Source of the DNA: Sphaerolaimus hirsutus
Lineage: Eukaryota; Nematoda; Chromadorea; Monhysterida; Sphaerolaimidae
Direction of reading: 5' to 3'
DNA: 64,000 bases
Assembly (NCBI GenBank): GCA_964036195.1
Contig: OZ038458.1
Location: forward strand, 21,217,832-21,281,831
Shown in pieces: positions 3,907 to 25,346 of the stretch. The translations under genes were made by a program, and so were the position numbers. The number at the start of each line of letters is the position of its first letter. Position 1 is the first letter of the stretch. The notes under the pieces are model-generated. The model saw only the letters and a list, made by a program, of their open reading frames with translations. It was not told where the DNA came from and made no database searches.

Positions 3907-3959
3907 CAATACTACCCTGGTAAACGTGTGTGCAGGTTTTTCAATTATTTATACCTAGG

Positions 3960-4130: not shown

Positions 4131-4135
4131 GAGGA

Positions 4136-4632: not shown

Positions 4633-4637
4633 AGGTA

Positions 4638-7327: not shown

Positions 7328-8543
7328 CATAGCATAAATCGAGGGTGGCATTTTAGGGGGGGGGGGGTCCACCAGACTTTCATGTCATCCCATTCTGTTG
7401 TACGTTGGCCGATTTTGTTGCCGTTCGAGTATGTTAGGGTTTGAGGTTGGGGCTACGACCAAATTTTTTTATTTCCTCAAATAATCCCCCAGTCCCGAGA
7501 TAAGGGGGTCTATAAAAACGTGGTTATTTTGCATGGCCGATCTGGCCGATTGACTTCGGAGCTCAATAACTCGGCCATGCAAAATAACCACGTTTTTATA
7601 GACCCCCCTTATCTCGGGACTGGGGTATTATTTGAGGAAATAAAAAAATTTGGTCGTAGCCCCAACCTCAAACCCTAACATACTCGAACGGCAACAAAAT
7701 CGGCCAACGTACTGTAGGTAGAAATATGGCTAACCAATCATGCGTAAGAACGTAACGACAACTTTGCGCAGACACTCCGACGACTCGAGAACGACCATGT
7801 GCGACCGAATGACGACCCGCGGTGCACAGGGAAGTCACAGTGAACGTGCGGTTCGCTGTGCACTGCAAATCCGCCAACGAAGCCGCAGCCCCAGGACGGT
7901 ACGCCCGAATGGACACTACTGCGGCCATGAATTTATTAATTAATTTCTTTTCCGTTAATTACGTAATTATTTCCCGTGTGATGATAATTTTTCATTTCAT
8001 GTTTCATTAAGTAAGCTAATTAGGTTACCCGCATTGTTAGTTAATTAAGTGACTACTTCCGTTTTTCTTTTTAAATGCATTTCCTAATATATACTTTCGA
8101 ATGTTATAAGTTTTAGGTTTTATCAAGTTTACATTTTTGGTCAAAAGGGTGCAGTGTCTGAGAATGGGTTAGAAAGGCTTATGTTTCTAGTTAAGCTAAC
8201 AGGTGTTGACTCGGTTAAATGCTTAGACGCCCCGATAGATAACATTCAGAAAATTCCCCGACCAAGTGCTTTTTACTTAGGACTAGGTAATGGGTGGAAA
8301 AGTGGCAAACGGCAATTATTGTCGGCATGCGACTGCAAGACACATGCAGAGCACCGTTTACAGTGAAGAGCACAGTAGTGCCAATTAATTATTCCCATCA
8401 CCCAGGGTGATTGGTGAACTCACAAGTGCTAGTGTTTTGTGGCGTGTGTTTAGTCCCAAAGTTTCCAACCCTTACCCGGCAATGCAATAACCTTGAACAA
8501 CCCCCGCAATGAGCGTTCTTTCTGTGGCCTTGGTCGGGCGCGC

Positions 8544-8550
8544 TATAAAA
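8544..8550 (+). promoter_or_regulatory. LTR TATA box (candidate)
   Basis: TATAAAA in a GC-flanked context (GGCGCGC just upstream) is the best core-promoter candidate in the LTR. A second TATAAAA lies at 8904-8910. The 3' LTR equivalent is 24428-24434. Confidence 0.55.
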
Positions 8551-8994
8551 TATATTTCACCTAAACGGGCGCAGGTTGATAACACGTGTCACACCACCTG
8601 CTCTAAATTGTACCGTAACCCCTGAATAGAACCCAGTTTATGACACTCACCTTTGAGATGAATTGCATGTTAATTACGTCCGTGATAATCGCAGTTACTT
8701 CAAATCTGGCCTAATTTACGTTTGTACCCCTTTTATCTAAATTAATTATTTTTTCCCGCATTTAATTAATTTACTTGTGCCTTGTACGCTATGTTTACGG
8801 TTTTCCAGTGATCATTGAAATTGCCTTAGTAATTCGCTTATTACGGTTAATTGTTGTGTCTCTGATTTAGTATTCATTTCGCTTATGGTAGGTTTTTGGT
8901 GATTATAAAACGCGCTGATTTTACATTTTTTCACCCACTAGAGGCTATACGACTCACTTGAGCTATTGTGAAATTGACTCTGACTACATCGCTA

Positions 8995-9000
8995 AATAAA
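8995..9000 (+). terminator. LTR polyadenylation signal (candidate)
   Basis: This is an AATAAA hexamer, with the same hexamer at 24879-24884 in the 3' LTR, where it would end the element's transcript. Confidence 0.55.
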
Positions 9001-9146
9001 GTTCCCGTGAAACCAACTTGGTCCCCCTGAAGCATACTAACTGCTTGAATTTTAATTTGAATTTTATTAATTTCGGCTATTTATTAATTACGGCTTTTTA
9101 ACAATTAATCGAAGTAAACCGCCGGCAGCCGTTACGAAAGGGATTG

Positions 9147-9152
9147 GTAAGT
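9147..9152 (+). promoter_or_regulatory. Candidate splice donor in the leader
   Basis: G|GTAAGT fits the donor consensus and lies downstream of the predicted start of transcription, in U5. It could splice to acceptors ahead of the Env-like ATG (AG at 12775-12776) or the helicase ORF (AG at 18935-18936). Two further CAG|GTAAGT donors lie in the Gag region at 9937 and 12252. Usage is inferred, not shown. Confidence 0.4.
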
Positions 9153-9390
9153 TGCCGTGTCCGTCCTCAGGAACTGTCAGGACCCCAAGGGGTACTGGCG
9201 CCGTTCCTGATTTGCGTGTAAACATCCCCGTACCATAAAACCAATTATTTATTTAATTAAGCACGCAAGTGGAAGCGCAAAGGGACCGGAATTTGCAATT
9301 CTCTGCCGCTGCAAAATTCGACGAGTGGCGTATTTATGTGGTAAAAACGGAAAGTAGTAAAATTAGTAAAAACGTAAAATATCTGACAAC

Positions 9391-9408
9391 TGGTAGCGTA
9401 GCGAGTGG
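9391..9408 (+). other. Primer binding site (candidate)
   Basis: TGGTAGCGTAGCGAGTGG begins two bases after the 5' LTR, and its TGG is complementary to a tRNA CCA tail. I cannot name the tRNA from sequence alone. Confidence 0.6.
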
Positions 9409-9503
9409 TTTCCTAAGCAAGCCATAAAGTTTTCTGTCTGGGGCGCCTGATCAACGCCTCTACAAAAAACGGCTTCACGGATAACGAGTCACCCCAAAGG
9501 GAA

Positions 9504-12500
9504 TTGGGATCGAGGGGGCCAGCAAGCTTACAAGGGGACACCATAGAACAAGTTTGGCACGCTGCGTTGGAGAAGCAAAAACAAGCACGAAGGCGCGCGC
9601 GACAACAGAAGGCTGGGCAAGAAGTGGACGCACAACTTGCTGCAGCTGAGAGTCAAGCAGGAGACAGTGAGTCGAACGATTCGGTTAACCCTGAAACAGA
9701 GGCGCCGGAAGCGCTAGAGGAGAGTGAAAGTCAACGCTGGTCTGGACAGACAGCTGAAGACACCCCGGTAATCAGGTTATCAACGGTTGAAGGTGCAGGG
9801 CCTGCGCCAGACAGTTTCAGTCAGTGGAAGACGCCAGCTGTACCGGCAGCGGCGCGGCAGCTAACGTCCAGCGCAGAAGCTGAAGAAGCGCCTGGGACAA
9901 GCAGACAAGCTGCAGGAAAGGAAGCAGGTAAGACAGGTAAGTGGTCTAAGCTTCGGAGGACACTGGGTTGGAGCGCGGGCAGCTCATCCATATCGCCTGG
10001 AGTGCGATCGGGTTCTGAAGTCGGTTCAGACGGATACGTTGGTGACAGCGAGCCTCTAGGGCAGCCGTCGATTCAACGTGATTATCCTGTGATTGCAGCT
10101 GAGCTTGGAGCTACTGCAGATCAATTTCCCGTGATTGAAAATACCGTAGAGGAATTATTGGAGACAGCGGCGCAGAGTGGAGACACTTCCCCGGCGCTGC
10201 AGTTAAGCCCCCCGAAGAGCACTTCGACGCCGAGAGACGTGTCAGGCAACAGCAGTCGGAATTTATCGAGCGACCAGTCGAGATCACAGAGCGCAACTGC
10301 AAAGGCTAGACGCCAGTTAATTAAGACCGAATTTTCAAGTAACCCCCCCGTGATAATTATTAACAGTCCCGCTAGCAGAATGACAAACAATGGCGCGAAC
10401 CAGACGGCGGCTCCGGCGCTGGAAGACAGGTACGCAAAGGTCACTAATGCGGACTTAATCTACCAAGCTACCATAATGGATCTGGACCCGGTGCAAACAA
10501 CGCCAACCTGTGCACAATGGACACCTAAAAAGGCATGTGCAGCTGCGAAGAAATGGGCAAACATGATGAGTCAGGCGAGACCGGTTGGTGCTTTCTCACA
10601 GAATGGTGGTGAACCAGGGGACTTGCGTATGGTGACACTAATTAAAATGGCTATGAATTTATGGGGAAGTGACCCAGCCGCCGAGGTACCTAGGGTGGAA
10701 CATTTTCTGCAGGAATTCGAAGCGCACCACAGCGTACATGGCGACGATATAGTGGACCTGACGACTGCGTACCAGCAGCATAATCAAGCCGTACAAAATC
10801 AGAATGCGACGCTGGGAGGAAATTCACCGGCCAGTGGCCAGCAGCCGATAGTGCTGACCAATGGTCAAGCAGCGCCCCTACAGTCATCAACGGCACCAGC
10901 GGCGCCCCCGTCGGCAGCTGGAACGAACCAGGTGAGAACTGTTACGCAGCGACGCGCTCGATCCCATTCGCCAGCATCCTCCAGGAGCTCGTCGGCTACA
11001 TCTGAAGTGGCGCGGCCCACAGACCTGGGACAAAATTGGCAATTAGAGCAAAGTAATGCGGCAGTCATCACAGCCTTAGCACAACAATGTGGATATTTTC
11101 GCGGCAAGCCAAATGAGGGTTTCAGGGACTGGAGAAGGAGCTGGGACACGGTATGTGATGCGCTGCGCATAAAATTACAGGAGCGGAAGCCGCTGGTGAA
11201 ATTGTTCCTGAAGGGCAGTGCCAGAGCCATTTTCAACACGCGGTACAGAGAATTGCGCGACCTGAATTACAAGGACATGATGCAGGCACTGGAGAAGTTC
11301 TATGAAAACCCAAATGACAAACATCATGCACAGAGAGAGATTTTTGAAACGCGACAGGGCGCAGATGAGTCGGTACTGGAATGGGCGGTACGTTTGGAAA
11401 AGTTGATCAAACGCGCCTATCCAGGCATGGGTCATGAAAAACGAGGTGACACATGCATGATAAAATTTCATGGAGGGCTGAGAAATGAAATTCGGCGCAA
11501 TGTACCTGTCACGGCGTCTATCACTTGGAAAGAGATGGTTGACAACGCACGCGCACAAGAGAGCTTTCTGGAAGCAGAACAGAGCCAGAATAAGGGAGAA
11601 AAATCCAAACAGGATGTGGTTGCCAGCGCTACAGACAAGGTAATGGACAGGTTGATGGCGCTAAACATGCCCGCCATGGCTGGACTGCCGTCCCAGGCCG
11701 ACAAGACGTTAGAAACAATGGAACAGAAAATGACCGAGAGTGTTGCCAAATTCGACTCTGTGCACCAAGAGATAGCGAAGAAATTAGCGCAACTGGGCGC
11801 GTTGGAAGGTAAACTTTTGGGATTGAATAGGGACCCCCCTAAATTGCCCCCACGAAAATTTGACAAAGGATGTTGGGAATGTGGCTCTGAAGAGCATATC
11901 AGATATGAGTGCCCCAAACTAACCCCAGAACAAAGGGAACAGTATTTCAAAAGGAGCCGCGGCGGCGGAGCATCCAGAGGAAATGGACGTGGGCGCGGCG
12001 GAGGACAACGTGGTGGCTATCAGGGAAATAATCAAGCCCAAGCGATGCAGCCAGGTATGGTGCCCATGCAATACGCATATCCGCAGTGGCAACCAGCGCA
12101 GCCGATGCCTGTACAACCAGCGCAGACGGTACAGAGGGCTGGCGATATGAACATGCAACCGCAAATGATGGCTTATCAAACGCCGCCAGCTAACTGGATG
12201 GCTATGGGACCGGATGGGCGCATGCAACAATATAACATGCAACCGGTACAGGTAAGTAACCCACACGTAGAGTCGCTGAACCCCACGCGAGTGTCCAGTA
12301 CGACTGGAATGACCATGCATGTGCGCGAAGATGATCGCTGCATGATGATACGTCCCGTTAATAAATTAATCCCTGTGATGCAAGGCCTGGAATTAGAGGA
12401 TGAGGAACCTGACGAACTGGTTCCAGAGTCACCCGAAGAGCAGCAGCGCACTACTGGAATGCATGTGCTCGCGCAGGAGCGGGAATTCTGGATCAAACCA

Positions 12501-15500
12501 TGGGCATACATGCGAACTGAAAAAGGTTACCTGTTTCGAACTACCTGGCTGGCCTTTCTACGCAGGATTGGAATGCATGATTTGAGAGAAACGGACTGTA
12601 CGTTGTGGCCTAATTGCCCTGCAGACGACCACTCGGACACGCTGACTGAGGTGCCCTTGGATGTGCTCATGAACATCAGCCTGGACCCGTTTTTGTATGC
12701 CACGCCGGCCGCCCTGCCGCCACGTACTGGCTCCAGCAACCAGGTAGACAGGTATATGGGTTTTCTGTCTACTGAGGAAGGGGTGCGCCCCGCGCCGCGC
12801 GCATATTCAGAACCCCCCTACATGCCTCAGGTCGCACAGTCGCTGTTTTTCGTATTGGCAGTTGGGTTAATTATAATGGGATTAGCCTTTTTGCCGGGCG
12901 CGGGCGCGACTACCATGCCCTCGTTTCCACTGCTCTGCAGCGACTTGACAGATCACTACGATTTATACACGTACCCCCCTCTACCCAATTGCACGGCTAT
13001 TGTTGACACTACGGCGTCATTAGAACGGCCACGAAAATTGACACTGACAATCTACAAGCGAAATATGGTAGAATATCGTGCGGCAGCACACAGGTGTGTG
13101 GCCTCTACCCGAACGGCAAAGACGTATCAGAACTTCTGGGGCGACGTCACGCTGGAAAAGTTTGATTCTAACCCCCGATCGGTGGGCGCCGCCGAGTGCG
13201 AAGGCATGATTAAATATCACAAGTGCAACAATGGGCCCATGACCCCTGTGAGTGATTTGGACAACGCATGGGACACCCAGTACCCCACCAATGTTAGCTA
13301 CTCAGGACATGGATTATACTGTTGCAAATGGGTGAGTGAAACGACGCCACACTGTGGGCTGTTTCGAGGGGAAGTACAAATGAGATATGGAGCCAACACC
13401 ATGCAAAGCACGCTGGGTGAGGTTAGCAAGTGCAATTATGAAATGGGTGCATGCACGCTAGAAGACGGCAGCCAATTAACATGGAAACCGAACCCGAAGG
13501 CGGAATGCCCTTATGAAAAATGGCGTGAAATGCATGGACGCATTAGACAGGACATCTGGCTAGCCGATGATCATACACTATCACTGTCCTTCAGAGCACA
13601 TGAAGAGGTTGAATCATGCGGCATTAAATTATGGAAATCGGACCAGGATATTGTAGTGGCGCCATTTGAGAAGGCAGTGATTCGAAGCGTCAGACAAAAA
13701 CGAGCGCAAGGTCGACCCACGCTGGGAATAGTGAGCGCAGGCCAATTAGCAGCCAGCATGCAGGCGGTATACGAAACAGCAGAACAAACCATGCGCGCAC
13801 AGGCCGTAGCCACCTGCAAGAATGTGCAACACTTCCAAGAATATGTGCGCCTGGCTATGAGCGAACACGCAACTACGACAGCCCGATGGTACATGAATGA
13901 TAACGAAATAATTGCCAAACCTGCGCCGGACGGATTTTTGGTTCACAAATGTTTTGCGGTAAAAACATACGAGATCATGAAAGAGAAGAAGTCTCCAGAA
14001 TGCTACGAAACAGTACCTGTGCAAGTTAGCGTACACGGGCAGAATGTGACGTTGCACATGAATAGGTTGACAAACATTTTGCATTTTCAAGCGATCCCGG
14101 GATCATGCACCAATGCGCACAATCGCGTGGTAATGTTAAATGGACAGTGGTACAAATATCTACCGGAAGTAGGCGGCCTGGAACATTTACCTATGTATAA
14201 CACACACAGTTTCCCGCAGAAATGGCAACAGGAAAAGGTCAAGGATGTGCATCATCAGATTTTTGCCGCCACGACTATGTACAACTTGTCAGAATTATTG
14301 CCGACTACCACCCTAAATGACGTGTGGCATGCATATTCAATCGTGCGGCAAATTACGCAGGGGGCGGAGCCGGAGGTGGAATCACACATGCAAAGGCATC
14401 GAACCTTGGCAAAATCGGTATTGGCGCTGGGATGGTGGGATTTTGACACCTGGCGCACCTGGCTACAAGTATGGATCTATCTGATATGTGCACTGGTCAC
14501 CATGCAGTATTTACTAGCCGCGCTCATGGCTGCAGCGCCGGAAACGGCCGTGACTTTGGTGAACAGGGCAAAGGAAAAAATCAAAAGGCGGCCAAAGACA
14601 GAAGAAAAGTCCAATATCATTGTCGAATTGGCTGAGGACCGCCCTAGCGAACAGGTAAAGGTAAGAACGGTAATTAACCCGTGCGTGGGAATGCCAAGTG
14701 GCGTGCCCGCACTCACGGGCGCGCGTCGTTTTCCCGCTATACAATACAGCATCAACAGAAAATGCGATCTGGAAGAAGAATCGGTGTGCATGATCACTTT
14801 CTCGACGGAAGAAAGAGATAACATACATCAAGTAGCCAACCGACGTGAAGAGATCGTGCATGTGTATTACAGCCCATCCATTACCATAACCATCGATGGG
14901 AGAGAATATCGAAGATGTCTACTGGACACGGGCGCCATGCGATCATTATGCAACAGAGACGTGCTGATGCGACACAAGGAAAAGGCTACTAAACATGACG
15001 AAGTTTCACCTATTGGAGCCCTTAGGTGTGCAGCAGACTCGAAACTTTTGGTATTGGGACAAATGGAAGTACCGGTAACCATGGGAAACCACACCTTCGG
15101 GATTGTGTTTCAGGCAGTGAACGGATTAGCTGGTGAAATTCTAATTGGTGCAGATGTCTTACGGCACATGGTAGTAGACCTACCTGCAAGGGAATTACGA
15201 ATCCCTACGGCTAATGCGATCATTCCTTTTGACAACCCAGACCCGGAAGTGCAGCAGCGCAGAATTTACGCTATTGTGAATGAAAAAATAGAAATTCTGG
15301 CTAGACATGAAGCGCTAGTGACGGCGAAATTATCTGCCCCCATGGATGAAAAGTTATTTACGGTCATGGGATTGGATACGGTAGGCGAACGCTGTGGAGT
15401 TATGGCTGCTTCAGCGGCGTATGAAACCAGTGCCCCCGTGTTTCAGGTGAGATGTGCAAATGTACGAAATCAGCCCGTAGTGCTACAGGTAGGACAGCGC

Positions 15501-16103
15501 ATTGCGGTGGTCGAACCAGTGGATTGCGTGCTGAAGGTGAAACCTGGAGACCCTCCCGCTGAATGGGTGAAGCAGTGCTATGACAGAGATGTGTGTCGAC
15601 AGGTTCAAGCGACTGAACCTCCCCCCAAAGTAGCCGAAGACAAATTAGGACCTCCACTGCAAGTTGCATGTCCAGATGGACACGTGATGGAATTTACCGT
15701 GCCAGAAACATTGACGGACGAACGCAGAGAGGAACTGAAAAAGGTGATTTTGCAGTACAAAGAAGCTTTTGCCCGACATAAGTACGACATCGGCTACAGC
15801 GAATTAGTGGACTACCGGTTGCAATTAGTGGATAAAAAACCAATTGCATGCAGAATGTACCGGTTGAGTCTGGATGATCAGCAATACTTAGAAAATCATT
15901 TGAGATGCCTCATCGAGCACGACATCGTGGAACCCAGTACGAGCCCGTATTGTGCCCCCACGTTGGTGGTATCCAAACCGGATGGAGCGAAGCGGATGGT
16001 AATTGATTACAGACGCCTGAACGCTGTTTTGCACGCTCCCCAATTCCCATTACCCCGCTTAGATGAAACAGTCGAATCTTTATGTAGCTGCAAGTATTTT
16101 TAG
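9504..16103 (+). CDS. Gag / Env-like / protease / RT N-terminal polyprotein
   Basis: The frame is open from 9417; 9504 is only a TTG and the first ATG is not until 10380 (residue 293 counting from 9504), so the true start is unknown. Residues 1-290 are low-complexity. Residues 500-695 resemble a Ty3-type capsid. A CCHC knuckle has C790, C793, H798 and C803, followed by an RGG-rich stretch (816-845) and a P/Q/M-rich stretch. Residues 1107-1680 form the Env-like region (separate entry). An aspartic protease has D-T-G-A at 1808-1811 and a second LIGADVL-type motif near 1880. RT fingers begin near 2100 (VIDYRRLN, FPLPRLDE). The frame ends at TAG 16101-16103 inside the RT core because of a T5 run (16097-16101); the next RT segment continues in another frame. 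No stop or frameshift separates Gag, Env-like and Pol, unlike most retroelements. Confidence 0.9.
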   Translation: MGSRGPASLQGDTIEQVWHAALEKQKQARRRARQQKAGQEVDAQLAAAESQAGDSESNDSVNPETEAPEALEESESQRWSGQTAEDTPVIRLSTVEGAGPAPDSFSQWKTPAVPAAARQLTSSAEAEEAPGTSRQAAGKEAGKTGKWSKLRRTLGWSAGSSSISPGVRSGSEVGSDGYVGDSEPLGQPSIQRDYPVIAAELGATADQFPVIENTVEELLETAAQSGDTSPALQLSPPKSTSTPRDVSGNSSRNLSSDQSRSQSATAKARRQLIKTEFSSNPPVIIINSPASRMTNNGANQTAAPALEDRYAKVTNADLIYQATIMDLDPVQTTPTCAQWTPKKACAAAKKWANMMSQARPVGAFSQNGGEPGDLRMVTLIKMAMNLWGSDPAAEVPRVEHFLQEFEAHHSVHGDDIVDLTTAYQQHNQAVQNQNATLGGNSPASGQQPIVLTNGQAAPLQSSTAPAAPPSAAGTNQVRTVTQRRARSHSPASSRSSSATSEVARPTDLGQNWQLEQSNAAVITALAQQCGYFRGKPNEGFRDWRRSWDTVCDALRIKLQERKPLVKLFLKGSARAIFNTRYRELRDLNYKDMMQALEKFYENPNDKHHAQREIFETRQGADESVLEWAVRLEKLIKRAYPGMGHEKRGDTCMIKFHGGLRNEIRRNVPVTASITWKEMVDNARAQESFLEAEQSQNKGEKSKQDVVASATDKVMDRLMALNMPAMAGLPSQADKTLETMEQKMTESVAKFDSVHQEIAKKLAQLGALEGKLLGLNRDPPKLPPRKFDKGCWECGSEEHIRYECPKLTPEQREQYFKRSRGGGASRGNGRGRGGGQRGGYQGNNQAQAMQPGMVPMQYAYPQWQPAQPMPVQPAQTVQRAGDMNMQPQMMAYQTPPANWMAMGPDGRMQQYNMQPVQVSNPHVESLNPTRVSSTTGMTMHVREDDRCMMIRPVNKLIPVMQGLELEDEEPDELVPESPEEQQRTTGMHVLAQEREFWIKPWAYMRTEKGYLFRTTWLAFLRRIGMHDLRETDCTLWPNCPADDHSDTLTEVPLDVLMNISLDPFLYATPAALPPRTGSSNQVDRYMGFLSTEEGVRPAPRAYSEPPYMPQVAQSLFFVLAVGLIIMGLAFLPGAGATTMPSFPLLCSDLTDHYDLYTYPPLPNCTAIVDTTASLERPRKLTLTIYKRNMVEYRAAAHRCVASTRTAKTYQNFWGDVTLEKFDSNPRSVGAAECEGMIKYHKCNNGPMTPVSDLDNAWDTQYPTNVSYSGHGLYCCKWVSETTPHCGLFRGEVQMRYGANTMQSTLGEVSKCNYEMGACTLEDGSQLTWKPNPKAECPYEKWREMHGRIRQDIWLADDHTLSLSFRAHEEVESCGIKLWKSDQDIVVAPFEKAVIRSVRQKRAQGRPTLGIVSAGQLAASMQAVYETAEQTMRAQAVATCKNVQHFQEYVRLAMSEHATTTARWYMNDNEIIAKPAPDGFLVHKCFAVKTYEIMKEKKSPECYETVPVQVSVHGQNVTLHMNRLTNILHFQAIPGSCTNAHNRVVMLNGQWYKYLPEVGGLEHLPMYNTHSFPQKWQQEKVKDVHHQIFAATTMYNLSELLPTTTLNDVWHAYSIVRQITQGAEPEVESHMQRHRTLAKSVLALGWWDFDTWRTWLQVWIYLICALVTMQYLLAALMAAAPETAVTLVNRAKEKIKRRPKTEEKSNIIVELAEDRPSEQVKVRTVINPCVGMPSGVPALTGARRFPAIQYSINRKCDLEEESVCMITFSTEERDNIHQVANRREEIVHVYYSPSITITIDGREYRRCLLDTGAMRSLCNRDVLMRHKEKATKHDEVSPIGALRCAADSKLLVLGQMEVPVTMGNHTFGIVFQAVNGLAGEILIGADVLRHMVVDLPARELRIPTANAIIPFDNPDPEVQQRRIYAIVNEKIEILARHEALVTAKLSAPMDEKLFTVMGLDTVGERCGVMAASAAYETSAPVFQVRCANVRNQPVVLQVGQRIAVVEPVDCVLKVKPGDPPAEWVKQCYDRDVCRQVQATEPPPKVAEDKLGPPLQVACPDGHVMEFTVPETLTDERREELKKVILQYKEAFARHKYDIGYSELVDYRLQLVDKKPIACRMYRLSLDDQQYLENHLRCLIEHDIVEPSTSPYCAPTLVVSKPDGAKRMVIDYRRLNAVLHAPQFPLPRLDETVESLCSCKYF
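12822..14590 (+). other. Env-like transmembrane glycoprotein region inside the polyprotein
   Basis: An ATG at 12822 (residue 1107) is followed within a few residues by a hydrophobic segment (1113-1135). It ends in GAGA, which looks like a signal peptide or signal anchor. A cysteine-rich ectodomain follows, with N-glycosylation sequons (NCT, NVS, NVT, NLS). A basic RQKR at 1397-1400 fits a furin-type site near the middle, and a second strong hydrophobic segment lies at 1650-1679. The layout is that of a cleaved viral-type surface/fusion glycoprotein. I cannot assign a fold class. A faint organisational resemblance to mononegavirus-type glycoproteins captured by other retroelements is only an impression. 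It lies between Gag and protease, where env is not normally found. An AG after a pyrimidine-rich stretch at 12775-12776 could make 12822 the first ATG of a spliced RNA. Confidence 0.7.
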
Positions 16104-17982
16104 CAGTGCTGACATAAATCAAGCTTTCTATAACATTGCTTTGCATCCAGATGATCGACACATCACGTCATTCAGAAATGTTTTTGGACAATTTCAACTG
16201 AAACGTTTACCCATGGGATTAAAATGCTCACCTAGTTTAGCGCAGCGCTGTTTTGAATTAGCTATGGCCGGTTTAATACATCGAAATGTGTTACTATACA
16301 TCGACGATTTACTAATTTATAGTGCAACCTGGGAAACCCATTTATATGACATAGGACAGGTGTTAGAAAGATTAATTAGAAATAATTTCAAAATTAGTCC
16401 AAAAAAGTGTTTTTTCGCACGCGTCACAGCTGTACGTTTTCTAGGATTTATGATTGGACGTGACGGCGTGTGCGTACCGGACGACAAACGACACATAATT
16501 CAGGACTGGCCGGTACCCACTACCGTAAAAGAGGTCAAGGGTTTTCTGGGAGCTATCGGTTTTTTCAGACGCATGATTCACAGATGTGCCGAATTAGCTG
16601 TACCTTTGTCAAATCTCACGCGTACGGGACCACGAGAAAATTATAATAGCGACACCCCAGTAGATTTGACATCGAAACCCAAGGCACTGGAGGCTTTTCA
16701 TAAGCTCAAGGAAACATTGTTAGGAAGCCCATGTTTGCAATTTCCCGACCCTAAACGCATGTTCATAATTATCACAGACGCCTCTAAAATTGCCGTTGCA
16801 GGCGTACTGGCACAACGAGCAGAGGACGAGAAAATACTACATGCATGTGCCTTTTACAGCCGGAAGTTAGGTGCAACCCAAAGCAAATGGCCAGCAATTT
16901 CACTGGAAGCGTGTGCAATCTACGAAAGTATACGTAACTGGCATTGTTATTTGGCGGGGCGGCCCTTTGAAGTTTGGACTGACGCCAAGAGTATTTCGTG
17001 GGTAAAGAATCCTAATTTAGAGACTACCCCGCACGCCATGTTACACAAGTTCGCGCTAGCAATTACGCCGTACCAAATCACGTTCAAACACTTGAGGGGA
17101 AAAAGTAACGAATTGGCAGATGCATTATCTAGAAGACAAGACGCGCCAGTGGTATTCGACGAGAAAAAGGACCTGGATGAGGCTTTTGAGCAGTTCGCAC
17201 AAGTTACGTGCCGTGAAATCGCTATCCCGCACGATAAGCAGGTTACGGTAGCTGCGGCGAGCAGGGCAGCGTTTCAGCCAATCAGCGAACGAAGCGGCGT
17301 AAACGAGGAGGCGGAGTTACTGCGACCAATCAGCGACCGGACGCGCGGGCGAAAAGAGGCGGAGTCACCCGGGCTGCGAGAGCGGCAGCGGAACGCGGAA
17401 GCGCCTGGAACCGGAACAATGGCTGGTGGTTCAGGAGCCGGAAATGAAGTTGTTCCGGGTTTGACGAGTGTAAACAAGCGCAGTACGATCATGGCACTAC
17501 CTCCAATGACCTCGGTTGACAAATTGAAGCGACTACAAGCAGAAGAACCGTACATAGCCACAACCATAGAAGTGTGTCGCGCAGATAATTTTTACAGCGC
17601 CGCGCCGTATTTTATTGACCAATACGGTTTGTTATGTCGCCAGGCGGGAACGTCCCAAATACCAGGTATACAATTATACGACCCCGTATGTATTCCGTCG
17701 GAATTAGTTCCATTCGTATTAGAATTAGCTCACAATCACCCTACGGCGGGCCATTTAGGAATAATAAAAACATTTGAAAGATTACAGGAATTCGCGTGGT
17801 TTCCAGGAATGCGGCCAGAAAGTGCGCGCTGGGTTGCCACCTGCCCTTCGTGCAACGCCAAGAAAGGTCTCAGAGCGGCAATGCGAACTCAAATGGTGTG
17901 CCGCCAGGTAGCCAAAAGGCCAGGTGATGTGATAGCGGTAGACGCAATAGGACCTTTACTAACCACGAAACGCAGAAACTGA
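16063..17982 (+). CDS. RT core, RNase H and integrase N-terminal half (frameshifted)
   Basis: The frame is shifted relative to the Gag-protease frame; the switch falls at the T5 run near 16101 in the middle of RT, so it is a lesion and not a normal gag-pol signal. The YIDD catalytic box is at 16297-16308. RNase H (about 16770-17140) shows TDAS, an acidic-helix E, WTDAK and NELADALSR. A charged linker follows. The integrase HHCC finger is at about 17730-17870 (H-H then CPSC), and the first catalytic aspartate is in the GDVIAVDA segment near 17941. The frame ends at TGA 17980-17982. The same frame reopens at once in the next segment, so this is a nonsense change. The nominal start at 16063 is an artefact. 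Confidence 0.9.
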   Translation: MKQSNLYVAASIFSSADINQAFYNIALHPDDRHITSFRNVFGQFQLKRLPMGLKCSPSLAQRCFELAMAGLIHRNVLLYIDDLLIYSATWETHLYDIGQVLERLIRNNFKISPKKCFFARVTAVRFLGFMIGRDGVCVPDDKRHIIQDWPVPTTVKEVKGFLGAIGFFRRMIHRCAELAVPLSNLTRTGPRENYNSDTPVDLTSKPKALEAFHKLKETLLGSPCLQFPDPKRMFIIITDASKIAVAGVLAQRAEDEKILHACAFYSRKLGATQSKWPAISLEACAIYESIRNWHCYLAGRPFEVWTDAKSISWVKNPNLETTPHAMLHKFALAITPYQITFKHLRGKSNELADALSRRQDAPVVFDEKKDLDEAFEQFAQVTCREIAIPHDKQVTVAAASRAAFQPISERSGVNEEAELLRPISDRTRGRKEAESPGLRERQRNAEAPGTGTMAGGSGAGNEVVPGLTSVNKRSTIMALPPMTSVDKLKRLQAEEPYIATTIEVCRADNFYSAAPYFIDQYGLLCRQAGTSQIPGIQLYDPVCIPSELVPFVLELAHNHPTAGHLGIIKTFERLQEFAWFPGMRPESARWVATCPSCNAKKGLRAAMRTQMVCRQVAKRPGDVIAVDAIGPLLTTKRRN

Positions 17983-17985
17983 CAT

Positions 17986-18822
17986 GTGTTAGTATTTGTT
18001 GATCAGTGCACACGTTTTGGAATTGCTGTGCCCGTTCCCGACATAAAACAAGACACAGTATCATTTGCATTTCTGTTGCACATTTTGCCTATATTTAGTG
18101 TGCCGGCCATTATACTCAGTGATAACGCCCCTAGCTTTACCGAGGGCACTTTTGCCAAGCTTCTACAATATTTGAACGCGACCCAACATACATCATTTGC
18201 GTACACCCCCAAGAGCAACGGAATGGTGGAACGTAGGAATGGTGTTCTGATGGAAATAGTATCACACTACGTAAATCGTACACATGACGATTGGGACATA
18301 CATTTAGGCGCCGCTGTACACGCGTACAATACATCGAAACACCCTTCCTTGCAAACCACCCCCTATGCGTTGCTATTTGGCAAGCCTGCTGCGTCCATGT
18401 GGGAGCGTATGATCGAGCCTCCCCCTGACAACGAGGCATTGCCCTCATTGCCGCATAAGCGCGCTCTTATAAATGAATTAGGCGCGCGTCTGACCACAGC
18501 ACGCGAAGCAGCGCACACCGCTTTAGCAAAGGCGCAGCAAAAAGAGCAATTTTACGCCAATCGCCGTGCGCGCCGATTGAATGTGCAACGCGGGCAAGCG
18601 GTACGCGTATACACGCCGCGTATTACTCAGTTGACGGGCCCTAGTAAGAAATTCGCGCCTCGCTTTATCGGCCCGTATGAGTGCATTGATTATGCCCACC
18701 CATTAGTGACTTTATTCAACAATATTAATAAGAAAATTTATGTAGTTCATGCAGATCGTTGCAAGGCAACCAGTGAATATTTAATCCCCCCTTCTTACAG
18801 TGAATTATACGGCGACGGCTAA
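17986..18822 (+). CDS. Integrase catalytic core and C-terminal domain
   Basis: This continues the frame of the previous segment after the TGA at 17980-17982. It holds the rest of the integrase core: the second aspartate in LSDNAPSF (about 18118) and the glutamate in NGMVERRNG (about 18220). The tail has a basic stretch and a GPY/F-type motif (FIGPYE near 18666), as in many Ty3/gypsy integrases. It ends at TAA 18820-18822. A 226-bp gap follows before the helicase ORF. This copy would not make full-length integrase without readthrough. Confidence 0.9.
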   Translation: MLVFVDQCTRFGIAVPVPDIKQDTVSFAFLLHILPIFSVPAIILSDNAPSFTEGTFAKLLQYLNATQHTSFAYTPKSNGMVERRNGVLMEIVSHYVNRTHDDWDIHLGAAVHAYNTSKHPSLQTTPYALLFGKPAASMWERMIEPPPDNEALPSLPHKRALINELGARLTTAREAAHTALAKAQQKEQFYANRRARRLNVQRGQAVRVYTPRITQLTGPSKKFAPRFIGPYECIDYAHPLVTLFNNINKKIYVVHADRCKATSEYLIPPSYSELYGDG

Positions 18823-18934
18823 AATTGATTAATTAGCTGATTAATTAGCCGTTACGACCATCGCCGCCGCGTCAAACAACCCGGAACCAGGTATGACAGG
18901 TATGAAGTGTGTGTGAAAGTGTGCGTGTGTTTTT

Positions 18935-18936
18935 AG
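18935..18936 (+). promoter_or_regulatory. Candidate splice acceptor ahead of the helicase ORF
   Basis: GTGCGTGTGTTTTTAG is a plausible 3' splice site, 112 bases before the helicase ATG, with no ATG in between. It would let a spliced RNA present the helicase as its first ORF. This is inference only. Confidence 0.4.
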
Positions 18937-19048
18937 GAAGCTCGTGCACCCCTTTTGCCCACGGGCAACTGGACCGCACGAGTTCTTATTACTTTCCCCG
19001 TTCATAAAACTTCGCAATTAATTATTTTATCACATATTTATAATTATA

Positions 19049-22000
19049 ATGGCTTCGGCCTCTCGCAAACGCCCATTTGAAGGTGCAGACGCCCCGCCCA
19101 TTAAATCCAAGGAGACAAATACACATGGTGCCTGCGGCGGCGGAACCATTCCCCCGCGACAACTTTACCGCGCGCAGCAGATGCAAAATGGACCGGAAAT
19201 CTACCCCAGCAGAGGGAAATTCGAAGGTTGGGTAGATAGGGTGTATATTGACTCGGGCGCCGACGGGCATGTTGAGTATCAGTGCCATGTGAGAATTTCT
19301 GAGCAGACGATGGCGATACTCAACGAAAACGAGCAGTGGGTAAATGCGGATGAAGCCTATCCGTATTTTTATTATTCGAATAAGCGGGCCAAGGCGGCTA
19401 GGGACAAACGGACCACCCAGCTGGTGGATTTGTGCGCGAGAATTCAGAAACAACACCCCTCGATGTTCCTGCCCCTGGTGCGCCACGGGATGCGTTTCTC
19501 GGCGACCGCAATCGCACAAAAAATAGAAAATCCCCGGTACTGGGAGTTTACCGGCGTCGCGATATGGGGTAATCAGACAAAGTGCCCCTTAAACGTTGCC
19601 GCCCCCGTGGTCGTGAGTACGCAGGGCACGCGGCGCGTCACTCAAGCGGCACGTACATTGACGCGCGGCGACACTTCCGGCTACCAGCCCTACACGAGCG
19701 ACTGGAAAACGGCGCGGCTGCGAGCGGCCTTCACGCCGTCGAATTACAAAAATCTGGAACCGCTGGGCGCGGCGGAGCGGGGCGCTGCCGGGCCGGAAAA
19801 GTTGGTCATCTTACACAGAGAATATGTAAGTGACAGCAGAGTGGAAAACTTGAGTGCTGGGCAGTTGGGGCTGGCCCACGTCGAATATCACGACCTGAAC
19901 GATTTGGACGTGTTCGGCGACGAATTCTACGGCCATGCGTACGGGCTGCAGGTCGCCACGGCCGAGGACATCAGTACATCGGGCATCCAGCCAGACACAG
20001 AAAACCGAGACCACATGGACTCGTTTCTCAGGTATAAATTGGGCATTTTAGCGGCGGCCCATTGCTATAACGAGTCATTTTTGCGGTTTCGGGCGAAACG
20101 CGCAACGGATGTGTGCGCGCATGTGTCCTGGGAACACACGCCGCAGGGCACTGCATGCGATATTATGGTGCGCCGCCCGGACCCAGAAGAATTGCAAGCT
20201 GACACTTTCGAAGGACCAGAAGAGCAGCGCGTGCGTTTGCTGGAGCAGGTGAACACGCAGACACAGTTGTTGAACCAGGCGACGCCCATGTCGGTGTTGA
20301 GCTTGGTGCTGGCCAGACCGGACGAAGACAAACCAGCGGCGGGCAGCCCCAACCTATCAGTCAGAATTACCAGCGTGGAATCAGAGCCAACCACTACAAT
20401 GCTGCGTGCGAAGTTGGACATGGCGGCGTCGCAATCAGCACTGCCCCGAACCCTGGAGAGTGGAAGATACATGGTGCGCGGCTCGAACGACTCGCCCAAT
20501 TACGACCGAACCATGCGGTCGCTGCAAGCCGCCCTGAACAAAGCGCCGGTCGGCTGGGTGCCAAAAGTGGTCCAGGGGTCAAAAGTACTCACCCTGGAGG
20601 CGCAAATCCAACTAGCTGTGATATTGAATTTGCGTCTGCTGGATGACGAAACTGACTGGGCGCTCATTAGCCGCGAGGCTAATGAGTTGTACGAATCACT
20701 GTTCAGAGGAAAAAACGAACAGATGATTCAGGCCAAATTAGGTGAGTTTCTACCGCAGCAGGGACAGGTAGAAGTTTTAGGAGCCGTGATCACAGCCGTG
20801 CGAATGCGCAAACCCCTTTTGATTATGTGTGACTCGCCTTTCGGGTCCGGGAAGACGACCACACAAAATCAACTGGCGTATGTGTGTTCACGCGGCTATA
20901 ATTATTATAACTCAAGACCCAGGGTGCGCGCGGGCTCCGACTTGCCATCGGACAAGCAGCCGAACGCCAAATATCATTCGACGCTCATCACGTGCACGGT
21001 CAACTCGGCGGCCGACGAAGGCGCGCGCAGGGCCCTGACCAATCTGAATAAATTAGGGCAGCGGGATATTTTTGGGGCTTTAGAAGTTTTATTGCGGGAG
21101 CGCGCGAAATGGACCGCCATGGCTGATACGCCATTTTCTGAAATGCAAAAACTGGAGGGTTTTGAAGAATTTTTGAAACTAAGAGCGGCATTTCCGGTGC
21201 GCGTTTTGAGTCCCATGTGGGAAACTGACCCCACTTATAACGCCACCCCCGCGACCCAATTGCCAACCCTGCACACCCTAGCACAGCGAACCGGCCACAA
21301 CATCGTCCGCCTCAGCCCCGAATGGACGGCAGCGCTGGAAAAGTACGACGGCGCCAAGAAGGACTACGAACTGGTGGACGAAATCATCAACAACTGCACG
21401 GACGACGCCGTCATACGCGCGCAGCTGACCGAACAGGTGCCTTTTCTCACCGCCGACGATGGAGATGAGCAGCCATTCGACGACTTCGAGGCAGGCGTGG
21501 CGGGCGCCCGGGCTGGTGAGGCTAGTTTAGCTGATCAGGGATTTTGGGGTAAGGTGCTGCGTAGGGCGCTGTCTAAATATGTCAGGGCTACGGTCAGGCT
21601 GCACCGGGTGTTCTTGGAGGTGGTGCAGCCCGGTCAAATCCATGTCACTTTAGACTCCGCCCACGACGCCCGTATAAAAAGTGTGACTGCGTGTGCGGTA
21701 ATTATTGACGAAGCGTCTTTGGCGTCTGACGCTGCAGTAATTAGCGTGGCTCAGGCGGCTCAGCTCCCAGTGAACGGCATGCTACTTCTATTTGGAGACA
21801 GTAAACAATTGACGCGCATGATTCGCGTGCAAGACTGGGTGGAGCCTGTCCTGAAACCCGACCCCACCCTCATTGATAGGCTCACACAATACCAACTATG
21901 TCCCGTGGTTCACTTGGAAACAGTGTTCCGCGGGCATCGCCAGCTCATTCAGGCCAACTCTGTGGCGGCGTACAATGGACTGCTACGCGCCTACAACGAC

Positions 22001-23005
22001 ACTGCAGCGCACGGCGCCACCATGTTGCCCGCGCCTGGCGACTTCGAGGATGGCGTCATGCTGTCATCGACGCTGGTGCACCAGGGCTGCGAATCGAAAG
22101 AAGGCATGTCCATTATCAACAAGAAGGAGCTGCGCATCATCCTGCACCTGTACGACTACCTCGTGGCCACGGTGAAAGAAGATCCCACCCTGCCCTGGGC
22201 AGATCTTACCGATCCCGTTAGTTTGTTAATTGTCTGTTTTTATGCGGCGCAGGCGCGCGCCCTAATCAGTCGCCTAGTAGCCCATACAGAACACGACGCG
22301 GCTTACTGGGCCACCCGCGTGATCACTGCCGACAAGGCACAGGCCCGTGAAGCGGAAGTGGTCATCGTTTCCTGCGTGCGCGGCAGCCCGCCTACCGACT
22401 CCGCCCAGCTGGACGCCGACCCCAAGAAGGCATACGGTAGAGTTGGATTTGTAGCGGAGTTGCCCCGGGGAAACGTAGCCACCTCCCGCGCCAAATGTGT
22501 GCGCATCGTGGTGGCCAACGCCGAGACCATGTTGTGGTCAACCTTTTTCCACCGGTTTCTGACGGTCGAGCACAAAGCCGACCGGATTTACTCTTACGAG
22601 TCAGGCCAAATTTGGGGAAACGTGTTGGGATTTTGGCCTCCGGAATGGCGCCCGCGGGCCGACTTGAAAGAACTAGTCGGACCAGACAGATACCCGGCCC
22701 TCGAAGAAGAACTGCAGGCGGAGTGTTTGTCTGACATTGAAACCGCCACCGCGGGCTCTGACTCCTCCGCAGACGCGCGGGAGGAGGGTGTGCCGGTGTG
22801 TGTTGTCGAACCAGTTTACCGCCCTAATGAAGAATATTCCCCCATTAGCAACGACATGGCGGCCATGGCACTGCAGAACGTAGCCGAGCCCCCCTCGCCG
22901 CCGCCCGAGCACCACGACGCGGTCGAGGCCATCCCACTGCCACCGGAGGAAGCTCCAGCGCAACAGGTAGAACACCACATGGAAAATGGTAATTGTGAAA
23001 ATTGA
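19049..23005 (+). CDS. SF1 (Upf1-like) RNA/DNA helicase encoded by the retrotransposon
   Basis: An intact 1318-codon ORF, with ATG in good context (A at -3, G at +4). The helicase core lies in the C-terminal half. Motif I is SPFGSGKTT at 596-604, with S in place of the usual first G. Motif II is DEAS at 887-890, and motif III GDSKQ at 916-920. The FRGH segment (960-963) sits where Upf1-like proteins have motif IV-type residues. SCVRG follows at 1108-1112, and VATSRAK (motif VI) at 1143-1149. DEAS plus SRAK is typical of the Upf1/NAM7 branch. About 280 residues separate motifs I and II, more than I expect for Upf1. The first 590 residues are unrecognised (RKRPFEG near the start could be a nuclear signal), and the last 100 are acidic/proline-rich. 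It lies between integrase and the 3' LTR on the same strand with similar base composition, so it belongs to the element. Its role is unknown; RNP remodelling, reverse transcription or evasion of RNA decay are guesses. Confidence 0.9.
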   Translation: MASASRKRPFEGADAPPIKSKETNTHGACGGGTIPPRQLYRAQQMQNGPEIYPSRGKFEGWVDRVYIDSGADGHVEYQCHVRISEQTMAILNENEQWVNADEAYPYFYYSNKRAKAARDKRTTQLVDLCARIQKQHPSMFLPLVRHGMRFSATAIAQKIENPRYWEFTGVAIWGNQTKCPLNVAAPVVVSTQGTRRVTQAARTLTRGDTSGYQPYTSDWKTARLRAAFTPSNYKNLEPLGAAERGAAGPEKLVILHREYVSDSRVENLSAGQLGLAHVEYHDLNDLDVFGDEFYGHAYGLQVATAEDISTSGIQPDTENRDHMDSFLRYKLGILAAAHCYNESFLRFRAKRATDVCAHVSWEHTPQGTACDIMVRRPDPEELQADTFEGPEEQRVRLLEQVNTQTQLLNQATPMSVLSLVLARPDEDKPAAGSPNLSVRITSVESEPTTTMLRAKLDMAASQSALPRTLESGRYMVRGSNDSPNYDRTMRSLQAALNKAPVGWVPKVVQGSKVLTLEAQIQLAVILNLRLLDDETDWALISREANELYESLFRGKNEQMIQAKLGEFLPQQGQVEVLGAVITAVRMRKPLLIMCDSPFGSGKTTTQNQLAYVCSRGYNYYNSRPRVRAGSDLPSDKQPNAKYHSTLITCTVNSAADEGARRALTNLNKLGQRDIFGALEVLLRERAKWTAMADTPFSEMQKLEGFEEFLKLRAAFPVRVLSPMWETDPTYNATPATQLPTLHTLAQRTGHNIVRLSPEWTAALEKYDGAKKDYELVDEIINNCTDDAVIRAQLTEQVPFLTADDGDEQPFDDFEAGVAGARAGEASLADQGFWGKVLRRALSKYVRATVRLHRVFLEVVQPGQIHVTLDSAHDARIKSVTACAVIIDEASLASDAAVISVAQAAQLPVNGMLLLFGDSKQLTRMIRVQDWVEPVLKPDPTLIDRLTQYQLCPVVHLETVFRGHRQLIQANSVAAYNGLLRAYNDTAAHGATMLPAPGDFEDGVMLSSTLVHQGCESKEGMSIINKKELRIILHLYDYLVATVKEDPTLPWADLTDPVSLLIVCFYAAQARALISRLVAHTEHDAAYWATRVITADKAQAREAEVVIVSCVRGSPPTDSAQLDADPKKAYGRVGFVAELPRGNVATSRAKCVRIVVANAETMLWSTFFHRFLTVEHKADRIYSYESGQIWGNVLGFWPPEWRPRADLKELVGPDRYPALEEELQAECLSDIETATAGSDSSADAREEGVPVCVVEPVYRPNEEYSPISNDMAAMALQNVAEPPSPPPEHHDAVEAIPLPPEEAPAQQVEHHMENGNCEN

Positions 23006-23596
23006 TACGAAACAATTTTTGTCAAAAAACCAGTTATCAAAGTTTCAATGTAATAATTCATGCACAACTTTTTGTCATCAGGAGAAACAGACAACTTTGT
23101 AACAAAAAACCAGTAGTTAAAAACATACTTGTTAATATTCCATGAAAACAATTAGAAAATCTTGTCGACGATCAATTTTCACACGCACGGACTGCGACAT
23201 GTCGGTCGAGCAGGTAACTTGAATGTTGATTCCAAACTGCCCATCCAACAGTGGCACGATGCTGCGAAATAACACAGATTAGTAGTCTGATTAATTAGTT
23301 TCCAAAATCAAAAAAAAAAAAGAAAAAAAAAAAAAAACTTTTTCTCACATCGAGCCCTGAGCGGGAACCAAAATTTCGAAGTTTCGAGCACAAAAAGCCG
23401 GCACGGCAGAAAGCTGATGCCATAATTCAAATGAAGACGAGCCATATTTGCACCCCCAGGGCATGTGACTGCCACAGCCGTCCACCGAAAAATGCAGAGA
23501 AGGCATGATTTTTGAATAATCAAAAAACGGCGCAAAACACTTTTTCTGAACATGCCGTTTTTAGCCCGGAGGTAAAAAATTAATGGCTGGTGGGAT
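23006..23596 (+). other. Retrotransposon 3' untranslated region
   Basis: This is non-coding and contains an A-rich run (about 23309-23337). A classic long polypurine tract is absent; only GGTGGGAT abuts the 3' LTR at 23589-23596. The plus-strand primer is therefore uncertain. Confidence 0.6.
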
Positions 23597-25272
23597 TGTA
23601 GGTAGAAATATGGCTAACCAATCATGCGTAAGAACGTAACGACAACTTTGCGCAGACACTCCGACGACTCGAGAACGACCATGTGCGACCGAATGACGAC
23701 CCGCGGTGCACAGGGAAGTCACAGTGAACGTGCGGTTCGCTGTGCACTGCAAATCCGCCAACGAAGCCGCAGCCCCAGGACGGTACGCCCGAATGGACAC
23801 TACTGCGGCCATGAATTTATTAATTAATTTCTTTTCCGTTAATTACGTAATTATTTCCCGTGTGATGATAATTTTTCATTTCATGTTTCATTAAGTAAGC
23901 TAATTAGGTTACCCGCATTGTTAGTTAATTAAGTGACTACTTCCGTTTTTCTTTTTAAATGCATTTCCTAATATATACTTTCGAATGTTATAAGTTTTAG
24001 GTTTTATCAAGTTTACATTTTTGGTCAAAAGGGTGCAGTGTCTGAGAATGGGTTAGAAAGGCTTATGTTTCTAGTTAAGCTAACAGGTGTTGACTCGGTT
24101 AAATGCTTAGACGCCCCGATAGATAACATTCAGAAAATTCCCCGACCAAGTGCTTTTTACTTAGGACTAGGTAATGGGTGGAAAAGTGGCAAACGGCAAT
24201 TATTGTCGGCATGCGACTGCAAGACACATGCAGAGCACCGTTTACAGTGAAGAGCACAGTAGTGCCAATTAATTATTCCCATCACCCAGGGTGATTGGTG
24301 AACTCACAAGTGCTAGTGTTTTGTGGCGTGTGTTTAGTCCCAAAGTTTCCAACCCTTACCCGGCAATGCAATAACCTTGAACAACCCCCGCAATGAGCGT
24401 TCTTTCTGTGGCCTTGGTCGGGCGCGCTATAAAATATATTTCACCTAAACGGGCGCAGGTTGATAACACGTGTCACACCACCTGCTCTAAATTGTACCGT
24501 AACCCCTGAATAGAACCCAGTTTATGACACTCACCTTTGAGATGAATTGCATGTTAATTACGTCCGTGATAATCGCAGTTACTTCAAATCTGGCCTAATT
24601 TACGTTTGTACCCCTTTTATCTAAATTAATTATTTTTTCCCGCATTTAATTAATTTACTTGTGCCTTGTACGCTATGTTTACGGTTTTCCAGTGATCATT
24701 GAAATTGCCTTAGTAATTCGCTTATTACGGTTAATTGTTGTGTCTCTGATTTAGTATTCATTTCGCTTATGGTAGGTTTTTGGTGATTATAAAACGCGCT
24801 GATTTTACATTTTTTCACCCACTAGAGGCTATACGACTCACTTGAGCTATTGTGAAATTGACTCTGACTACATCGCTAAATAAAGTTCCCGTGAAACCAA
24901 CTTGGTCCCCCTGAAGCATACTAACTGCTTGAATTTTAATTTGAATTTTATTAATTTCGGCTATTTATTAATTACGGCTTTTTAACAATTAATCGAAGTA
25001 AACCGCCGGCAGCCGTTACGAAAGGGATTGGTAAGTTGCCGTGTCCGTCCTCAGGAACTGTCAGGACCCCAAGGGGTACTGGCGCCGTTCCTGATTTGCG
25101 TGTAAACATCCCCGTACCATAAAACCAATTATTTATTTAATTAAGCACGCAAGTGGAAGCGCAAAGGGACCGGAATTTGCAATTCTCTGCCGCTGCAAAA
25201 TTCGACGAGTGGCGTATTTATGTGGTAAAAACGGAAAGTAGTAAAATTAGTAAAAACGTAAAATATCTGACA
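23597..25272 (+). repeat. 3' long terminal repeat
   Basis: Same length and ends as the 5' LTR, and followed by the GTAC duplication at 25273-25276. I noticed no substitutions or indels relative to 7713-9388. Confidence 0.95.
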
Positions 25273-25346
25273 GTACAACAGAATGCGATGACATGAAAGT
25301 CTGGTGGACCCCCCCCCCTAAAATGCCACCCTCGATTTATGCTATG

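Follow-up and report, generated by a model that had tools for sequence, protein, structure and literature searches.

The Element and Its Helicase Gene

The stretch of DNA considered here, referred to as the window, comprises 64,000 nucleotides of the genome of the nematode Sphaerolaimus hirsutus (contig OZ038458.1, positions 21,217,832 to 21,281,831). It contains a complete long terminal repeat (LTR) element of 17,560 bp (7713-25272), whose domains follow, by Pfam, the order gag, fusion glycoprotein, protease-like region (weak), reverse transcriptase (RT), RNase H, integrase, and helicase. The helicase is encoded by an open reading frame (ORF) of 1318 codons on the forward strand (19049-23005), between the integrase end at 18822 and the start of the 3' LTR at 23597. 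This ORF belongs to the regular gene set of a Ty3/gypsy-type element that bears a glycoprotein and has amplified recently; it is under strong purifying selection, and its catalytic motifs are kept. We are nearly certain that the element encodes a selected, Upf1-like helicase of superfamily 1 (SF1).

The frame is open from stop to stop over 19022-23005, with the first ATG at 19049. At the base composition of the window, a frame that long has a probability of ~1e-22, and 200 shuffles produced none longer than 255 codons. A sequence-only reading made before this analysis had described an intact ORF of this length between integrase and 3' LTR, together with five helicase motifs; the ORF is borne out, and all five motifs are present. 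Motif I (SPFGSGKTT, aa 596-604; 20834-20860) is identical in 32 of the 34 other copies in which it is readable, one more copy not being covered there. Motif II (DEAS, aa 887-890; 21707-21718) and motif VI (SRAK, aa 1146-1149; 22484-22495) are kept in 35/35 other copies, and motif III (GDSKQ, aa 916-920; 21794-21808) in 34/35. SCVRG (aa 1108-1112; 22370-22384), which adjoins motif V, is also kept in 34/35 and aligns to SCVRA of the solved chain 8ftm. To these can be added VFRGH (aa 959-963; 21923-21937; 35/35), the counterpart of the QYRMH stretch in Upf1-like helicases, which aligns to QYRMH of 8ftm. All six lie on the forward strand.

The AAA_12 domain (PF13087) scores 87.2 bits over aa 940-1158 (E=1.4e-24; cut-off 27). 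AAA_11 reaches E=0.0012 and 19.1 bits, below its cut-off of 27; the first RecA domain is thus weakly matched. Motifs I and II are separated by 290 residues, compared with 149-154 in the type B helicases described below, so an insertion between these motifs is likely. We predict that the ORF product is active as an SF1 helicase that is driven by ATP and belongs to the Upf1-like branch.

Copies in the Genome and Selection

Copies were sought in the same genome (348 Mb). The helicase protein is 99-100% identical over its whole length at 35/35 scored places, window included, and 34 of these are without a stop, the remaining one having a single TGA; as 35 of 612 first-look candidates were scored, the number is a lower bound on copy number. 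The AAA_12 profile was also run against the genome, with 150 of 454 candidates scored. The best two belong to host UPF1, and the other 148 places (window included) match the same part of the profile with 89.7-97.8 bits. Of the 148, 28 were cut out, and 28/28 are copies of this helicase, with a DNA identity of 93.2-97.4% (in one case across just 1997 bases); the others are judged by the profile match alone, apart from those among the 35 protein-scored places. Absence of the ORF from all other copies was an outcome that the sequence-only reading had named as fatal to its proposal, and the ORF is present in other copies.

Four further complete copies were fetched. The order gag-glycoprotein-protease-RT-integrase-helicase is found in 4/4, as are 4-bp target duplications, and the gag region of one copy has ~450 extra bases. 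The candidate explanation of an assembly accident or a nested gene was rejected on this common order. The LTRs of these copies differ by only 4, 2, 0, and 1 mismatches, which points to recent amplification of the element. Two helicase copies on one contig (L005, C6:7577975, and L006, C6:7593852) have equal match scores and are separated by 15,877 bp, roughly the length of an internal region and a single LTR; they look like a tandem pair with a common LTR.

A comparison of nonsynonymous and synonymous rates (dN/dS) across copies had been recommended as a check, and it reveals purifying selection. The window was compared with each of the four further complete copies, and values are given in the same copy order throughout. 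In the helicase core, dN/dS is 0.04, 0.01, 0.05, and 0.03, lower than in gag (0.12, 0.04, 0.12, 0.07) for 4/4 copies and lower than in the RT-RNase H part (0.28, 0.02, 0.06, 0.02) for 3/4. The N-terminal part of the helicase gives 0.30, 0.03, 0.12, and 0.04, and its C-terminal tail is undefined for the first copy (no change), then 0.10, 0.20, and 0.08. The values are 0.29, 0.05, 0.07, and 0.05 for the glycoprotein, 0.15, 0.02, 0.07, and 0.02 for the protease and RT start, 0.32, 0.09, 0.12, and 0.10 for the first part of the integrase, and 0.89, 0.44, 0.07, and 0 for its last part (4-6 changes each). Values near 0.3 all belong to the copy most similar to the window, where changes are few.

The same picture emerges from variants among 36 helicase copies (8 full and 28 partial, window included), with codons carrying more than one change excluded. 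Variants common to at least two copies comprise 260 synonymous and 48 nonsynonymous changes, against a neutral nonsynonymous to synonymous ratio of ~2.31 (transitions weighted fourfold); the copies are related and may recombine, so that these variants are not independent events. Single-copy variants comprise 212 synonymous and 146 nonsynonymous changes, with 8 stop-codon cells.

Host Helicase Genes

From their translations, the two top-scoring AAA_12 places were read as parts of host UPF1 interrupted by introns. Between host UPF1 and the window helicase there is no DNA match, and the matched stretches of protein are 26% (114 aa) and 28% (96 aa) identical. The intron-bearing host UPF1 was seen at two places (L009 on C65 and L010 on C14), perhaps an uncollapsed haplotype. 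The AAA_11 scan, in which 98/98 candidates were scored, also gave a multi-piece match in short frames on C3 and one short match on C7, both of which are taken for probable host exons. No close intron-bearing relative of the helicase was recognised among the 98/98 AAA_11 candidates and the 150 AAA_12 candidates scored out of 454. The other outcome held to count against the proposal, a recent host-gene fragment with introns elsewhere, thus did not occur, the intron-bearing relatives being distant. A recent host-gene fragment is rejected on the 35 near-identical element copies, the distance of the host relatives recognised among the scored places, and the low dN/dS. A TTAGGG telomere run was also looked for in the host, and none was found.

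Architecture and Expression of the Element

The two LTRs (7713-9388 and 23597-25272, forward strand) are 1676 bp each, have TG...CA ends, and show 0 mismatches between them. They are flanked by the target-site duplication GTAC (7709-7712 on the left and 25273-25276 on the right). Directly 3' of the 5' LTR, ACTGGTAGCGTAGCGAGTGG at 9389-9408 is a candidate primer-binding site.

ORF1 (9417-16103, forward strand, as are all features that follow) contains gag, glycoprotein, protease-like region, and the N-terminal part of RT in a single open frame. The Retrotrans_gag domain (11196-11435; PF03732, E=1.3e-5) scores above its cut-off and is followed by a weak CCHC zinc knuckle (11868-11918; PF00098, E=0.02, below cut-off), which reads CWECGSEEHIRYEC in translation. 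Between gag and protease, in frame, there is a match to the viral fusion glycoprotein family Monjiviricetes_fusion (13392-14171; PF24664, E=8.4e-7, 27.8 bits against a cut-off of 27). The aspartyl protease-like region (14883-15155) is weak (PF13650, E=0.07, below cut-off) and carries an LLDTGA motif. RT, RNase H, and the N-terminal part of the integrase (16063-17982; PF00078, PF17919, PF17917, PF17921) terminate at a stop codon, and the remainder with the integrase core lies at 17983-18822 (PF00665, E=4.2e-8). This stop (17980-17982) is private to the window copy, 14/14 other copies examined being without it.

Protease, RT, RNase H, and integrase are arranged as in Ty3/gypsy elements (Metaviridae), the protease itself being weak. 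The TG...CA ends of the LTRs and the 4-bp target duplication also agree with that class, whose duplications measure 4-6 bp. Because the domains follow the order gag-glycoprotein-protease-RT-RNase H-integrase, the element is assigned to the Ty3/gypsy type, as a retrovirus-like element with an env-like gene inside ORF1. A fusion glycoprotein gene is a trait of errantivirus-like elements with env and is present here; an env in a separate 3' ORF, another trait of that group, is not found. Searches of the window against Rfam, at gathering scores, and for tRNA genes were both negative.

Two features bear on expression. At 16098-16103, within RT, ORF1 stops at a TAG after a T run and RT continues in the +1 frame. 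The frame change occurs at the same site in the window and in 14/14 other copies examined, and the frame 3' of it is under purifying selection, with 62.5 synonymous to 5.5 nonsynonymous and 63.5 to 4.5 changes in the two most diverged copies. We therefore consider programmed +1 frameshifting likely, and at an unusual place, since the site lies within RT and not at the boundary of gag and pol. The second feature is a TTTTTAG (18930-18936), 112 bases 5' of the helicase ATG; TTTTTAG / GAAGC is kept between integrase and ATG in 8/8 copies aligned, window included. It is a plausible 3' splice site, and we infer that the helicase is made from a separate, probably spliced mRNA.

Place of the Helicase Within SF1

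With the window helicase sequence alone (P0001), the best match among solved chains is to 8ftm and related entries (3.6e-6), with UPF1 next (0.073). 8ftm is listed as a 5'-3' RNA helicase-like protein and is presumably a Sen1-type chain. The core is 22.6% identical to yeast Upf1/NAM7 and 24.3% to 8ftm. Each protein search scored only the 8000 candidates with most words in common. The search with the full-length helicase returned no relative, because its words come from the first 500 residues. With the helicase core, the sole relative found by direct search is P0005, a JGI protein 28% identical over 293 aa, and the core and P0005 together make up profile A1. A search with A1 added three more relatives, all distant.

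Profile A1 matches 8ftm (5.8e-18), UPF1 (2.9e-17), SEN1 (5e-16), SMUBP2 (3.4e-15), ZNFX1 (2.7e-11), and DNA2 (1.1e-7). Since Sen1, UPF1, and SMUBP2 score almost alike, these matches do not discriminate among subfamilies. The IGHMBP2 family model TIGR00376 gives E=1.9e-13, with 49.7 bits far under its cut-off of 348.9. The N-terminal Cys-His (CH) domain is the UPF2-binding part of UPF1, and no Pfam match to it was found at E<=0.1. A tree of 10 rows leaves the fork between UPF1 and other subfamilies open, and a clade of the window helicase with P0005 is neither rejected nor shown (approximately unbiased (AU) test, p=0.322). The profile matches thus put the helicase in the Upf1-like branch of SF1, broadly understood, but one subfamily cannot be assigned. 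The proposed Upf1-like identity stands in this broad sense; a specific tie to UPF1 does not, as Sen1 scores equally and the CH domain was not found.

A viral search gave one weak phage match (E=0.01), and a search of viral contigs (IMG/VR) with P0001, P0005, and P0003 confirmed nothing. An origin of the helicase from phages or IMG/VR viruses was rejected on these results.

A Second Group of Helicase-Bearing Elements

The same genome contains a second, divergent group of helicase-bearing elements, termed type B, the group of the window element being type A. The AAA_11 scan found 14 further places in long open frames of 604-1183 codons, three of which were fetched: L067 (1159 codons), L068 (1138 codons), and L069 (1177 codons). 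L068 is 39% and L069 43% identical to L067, and both AAA_11 and AAA_12 are above cut-off in type B frames. In two of the three elements, a Gag frame lies upstream of the helicase (L070 and L071, Retrotrans_gag above cut-off in both) and a glycoprotein downstream. This glycoprotein is 31-35% identical to a stretch of the window glycoprotein that overlaps the PF24664 match and starts further upstream; by Pfam, the first type B piece reaches 18.7 bits, below cut-off, and the second has no match. At L068, no frame of at least 150 codons occurs within 3 kb upstream, and the fetched stretch holds no further frame of at least 200 codons. The frame behind the glycoprotein in one type B element (L073, frame 1-5193) carries aspartyl protease, RT, and integrase above cut-off and no Pfam match to RNase H at E<=0.1. 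As these domains follow the glycoprotein, the order in this element is gag-helicase-glycoprotein-protease-RT-integrase. Its aspartyl protease appears as two stretches in succession.

When the genome was searched with a type B helicase (P0009), 40 of 77 candidates were scored and yielded 49 matches, five at 98-100% identity and the longer others at 37-62%. Among the best 40 rows, 19 are without a stop and 21 have one, so many type B copies are damaged. At 16 places 55-62% identical to P0009, there is one in-frame TAG each within the helicase match. Even so, full-length frames that are 41-51% identical have stayed open, which suggests that the type B helicase has been maintained for a long time.

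The type B profile has yeast Upf1/NAM7 as its best match (1.2e-6), and a search with a single type B sequence found nothing. Type A and type B cores are 15.2-17.5% identical, whereas type A is 21.8-25.7% identical to each of six other rows. No BLASTP alignment between the two helicases was found at E<=0.01, and profile comparisons are weak; the pol of the window and that of type B are 38.5% identical over 109 aa of RT (BLASTP). In the tree of 10 rows, which involves long branches, type B is one clade (100/100) with type A outside, and a joint clade of A and B is neither shown nor rejected (AU p=0.138 with a corrected row, 0.125 before). The location also differs, after pol in type A and between gag and glycoprotein in type B. 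Given the low identity and the different positions, two captures are the simpler reading and likely, if not proven. A second element group with its own SF1 helicase points to a function in the element life cycle. More broadly, glycoprotein-bearing retroelements of this animal may have taken up Upf1-like SF1 helicases twice independently and may retain them as genes central to replication. They would then be retrovirus-like agents that encode helicases, and these helicases the retroelement equivalent of those of nidoviruses; we give this wider view slightly less than even confidence.

Possible Functions of the Helicase

We propose that the helicase remodels the element's own RNA, ~16 kb long as estimated from the LTR spacing, and its ribonucleoprotein (RNP). 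It would unwind structure and strip host RNA-binding proteins from the element RNA, which could then be packaged and copied by RT. The match of the core to enzymes acting on RNA or RNP, such as Sen1 and UPF1, counts in favor of remodelling. By itself this mechanism is tentative and a little less likely than not; the joint statement of a selected element helicase with RNA/RNP remodelling is one towards which we lean slightly. Among the functions considered, remodelling is ranked as the most likely, an anti-decay role second, and a nuclear Sen1-like role third.

Several observations weigh against this proposal. For residues 1-560 of the helicase, no relative was found by Pfam or the protein searches. 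Nor is every copy functional, given that the last part of the integrase shows weak constraint in two of the four comparisons (0.89 and 0.44, from 4-5 changes) and that a stop interrupts the glycoprotein region in two of the four copies. A genome scan for the glycoprotein (PF24664) scored 68 of 1557 first-look candidates, of which 68/68 matched, and other glycoprotein-bearing open frames reach 6806 codons (e.g., on C1, C9, and C129), far longer than ORF1 of the window. Since such frames exist, size alone demands no helicase. No scored AAA_11 or AAA_12 place lies within these giant frames, in a comparison made by frame, with other ORFs of those elements outside it.

A Upf1-like protein could instead serve against decay, by competing with or displacing host UPF1 and so shielding the element RNA. 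An RNA with a long stretch behind its stop codon is a target of nonsense-mediated decay. The element RNA should be such a target because the conserved frame change has its stop at 16101-16103, with ~8-9 kb of RNA behind it. Host UPF1 is present in the genome. The same idea has been raised for the nidovirus helicase in a review, which cites a study of HTLV-1 Tax and UPF1 (PMC8994683). A decoy, however, needs no ATPase, whereas the catalytic motifs are conserved here, and the UPF1 CH domain has no Pfam match at E<=0.1. We regard this role as rather unlikely.

Less probable again is a nuclear role like that of Sen1/senataxin or IGHMBP2 in transcription, RNA 3' ends, R-loops, or DNA, by which the helicase would aid transcription of the long provirus or processing of its cDNA. 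The presumed Sen1-type chain is the best single match and TIGR00376 is also matched, though far under its cut-off, but the near-equal scores of Sen1, UPF1, and SMUBP2 do not discriminate. It is quite improbable that the helicase is aimed at host defence or rivals, removing small-RNA or other silencing complexes or interfering with other glycoprotein elements; the genome is apparently crowded with the latter, judging by the PF24664 scan, but the sequence holds no hint of such a target. That the ORF is a passenger, a host helicase gene recently taken up and carried unused, is scarcely credible: LTR elements do acquire host fragments, as the covered part of one study describes (PMC5408684), but the reading is already contradicted by the core dN/dS of 0.01-0.05, the 260:48 ratio of common variants, and the lack of a recognised close host relative among the scored places of the AAA_11 and AAA_12 scans (98/98 and 150 of 454 candidates).

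Comparison with Known Systems

In textbook accounts, retroviruses and LTR elements consist of gag, pol, and env and rely on helicases of the host. An element family with its own selected Upf1-like helicase, many copies, and recent insertions makes it testable whether a helicase relieves the limits on retroelement genome size, RNA stability, and reverse transcription. That other elements of this genome carry a second, divergent helicase suggests that the need has arisen more than once.

No helicase-encoding LTR element was reported in the titles and abstract beginnings among the matches listed, a search with most subscription papers, bioRxiv, RepBase, and Dfam outside its range. In the covered portions of four papers, "helicase" occurs in one reference title only (PMC5408684), in Helitron and viral contexts (PMC6431247), for host genes near insertions (PMC3286476), and in a figure legend that names helitron helicase-like and RecD domains (PMC12910113), with no LTR-element helicase ORF described in any of the four. 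The premise that LTR retrotransposons do not normally encode helicases agrees with the literature searched, as far as these sources extend.

The closest parallel in build is Burro, a giant gypsy-like element of planarians (PMC6431247), which is likewise very large and has gag, an in-frame env, and protease plus RT in one frame. In the covered part of that paper, its env is related to mononegavirus fusion glycoproteins, and its captured extra functions comprise MATH/TRAF, BIR, BCL2-like, and ankyrin domains, a dUTPase, and, in one species, a midasin-like AAA region, with no SF1 helicase named. Unlike Burro, ORF1 of the window has none of these captured domains, dUTPase, BIR, ankyrin, and BCL2-like included (Pfam, E<=0.1), a distinction made by description. 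The host also differs, as its COX1 fits mitochondrial code 5 (invertebrate) and not the flatworm code. Bdelloid rotifer LTR elements resemble the window element in having a captured enzyme ORF beyond gag and pol, but their ORF3 encodes a DEDDy exonuclease or GDSL esterase, according to the text covered (PMC5408684). The Anakin elements also carry a glycoprotein from a related virus group (chuvirus), but they are BEL-Pao rather than gypsy elements, and no helicase is mentioned in the part of the paper covered (PMC7642597).

With cellular UPF1, Sen1/SETX, IGHMBP2, and ZNFX1, the window helicase has in common the AAA_12 core and motifs I, II, III, V, and VI. It differs from cellular Upf1-like helicases in its 560-aa N-terminal part without a found relative and in having no UPF1 CH domain. 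Nidoviruses are the largest RNA viruses; their polymerase and life cycle differ from those of the element. No nidovirus chain is among the matches of the window helicase (8 at E<=1) or of profile A1 (22 at E<=1), and the type B profile gives only a weak match, to the ORF1ab chain 5wwp (E=0.2). The link to nidoviruses is a parallel only. A review notes a resemblance between the nidovirus helicase and Upf1, with a possible role in RNA quality control or in protection from decay (PMC8994683). As in the element, the Upf1-like helicase is encoded by the agent itself, a virus whose RNA genome is unusually large.

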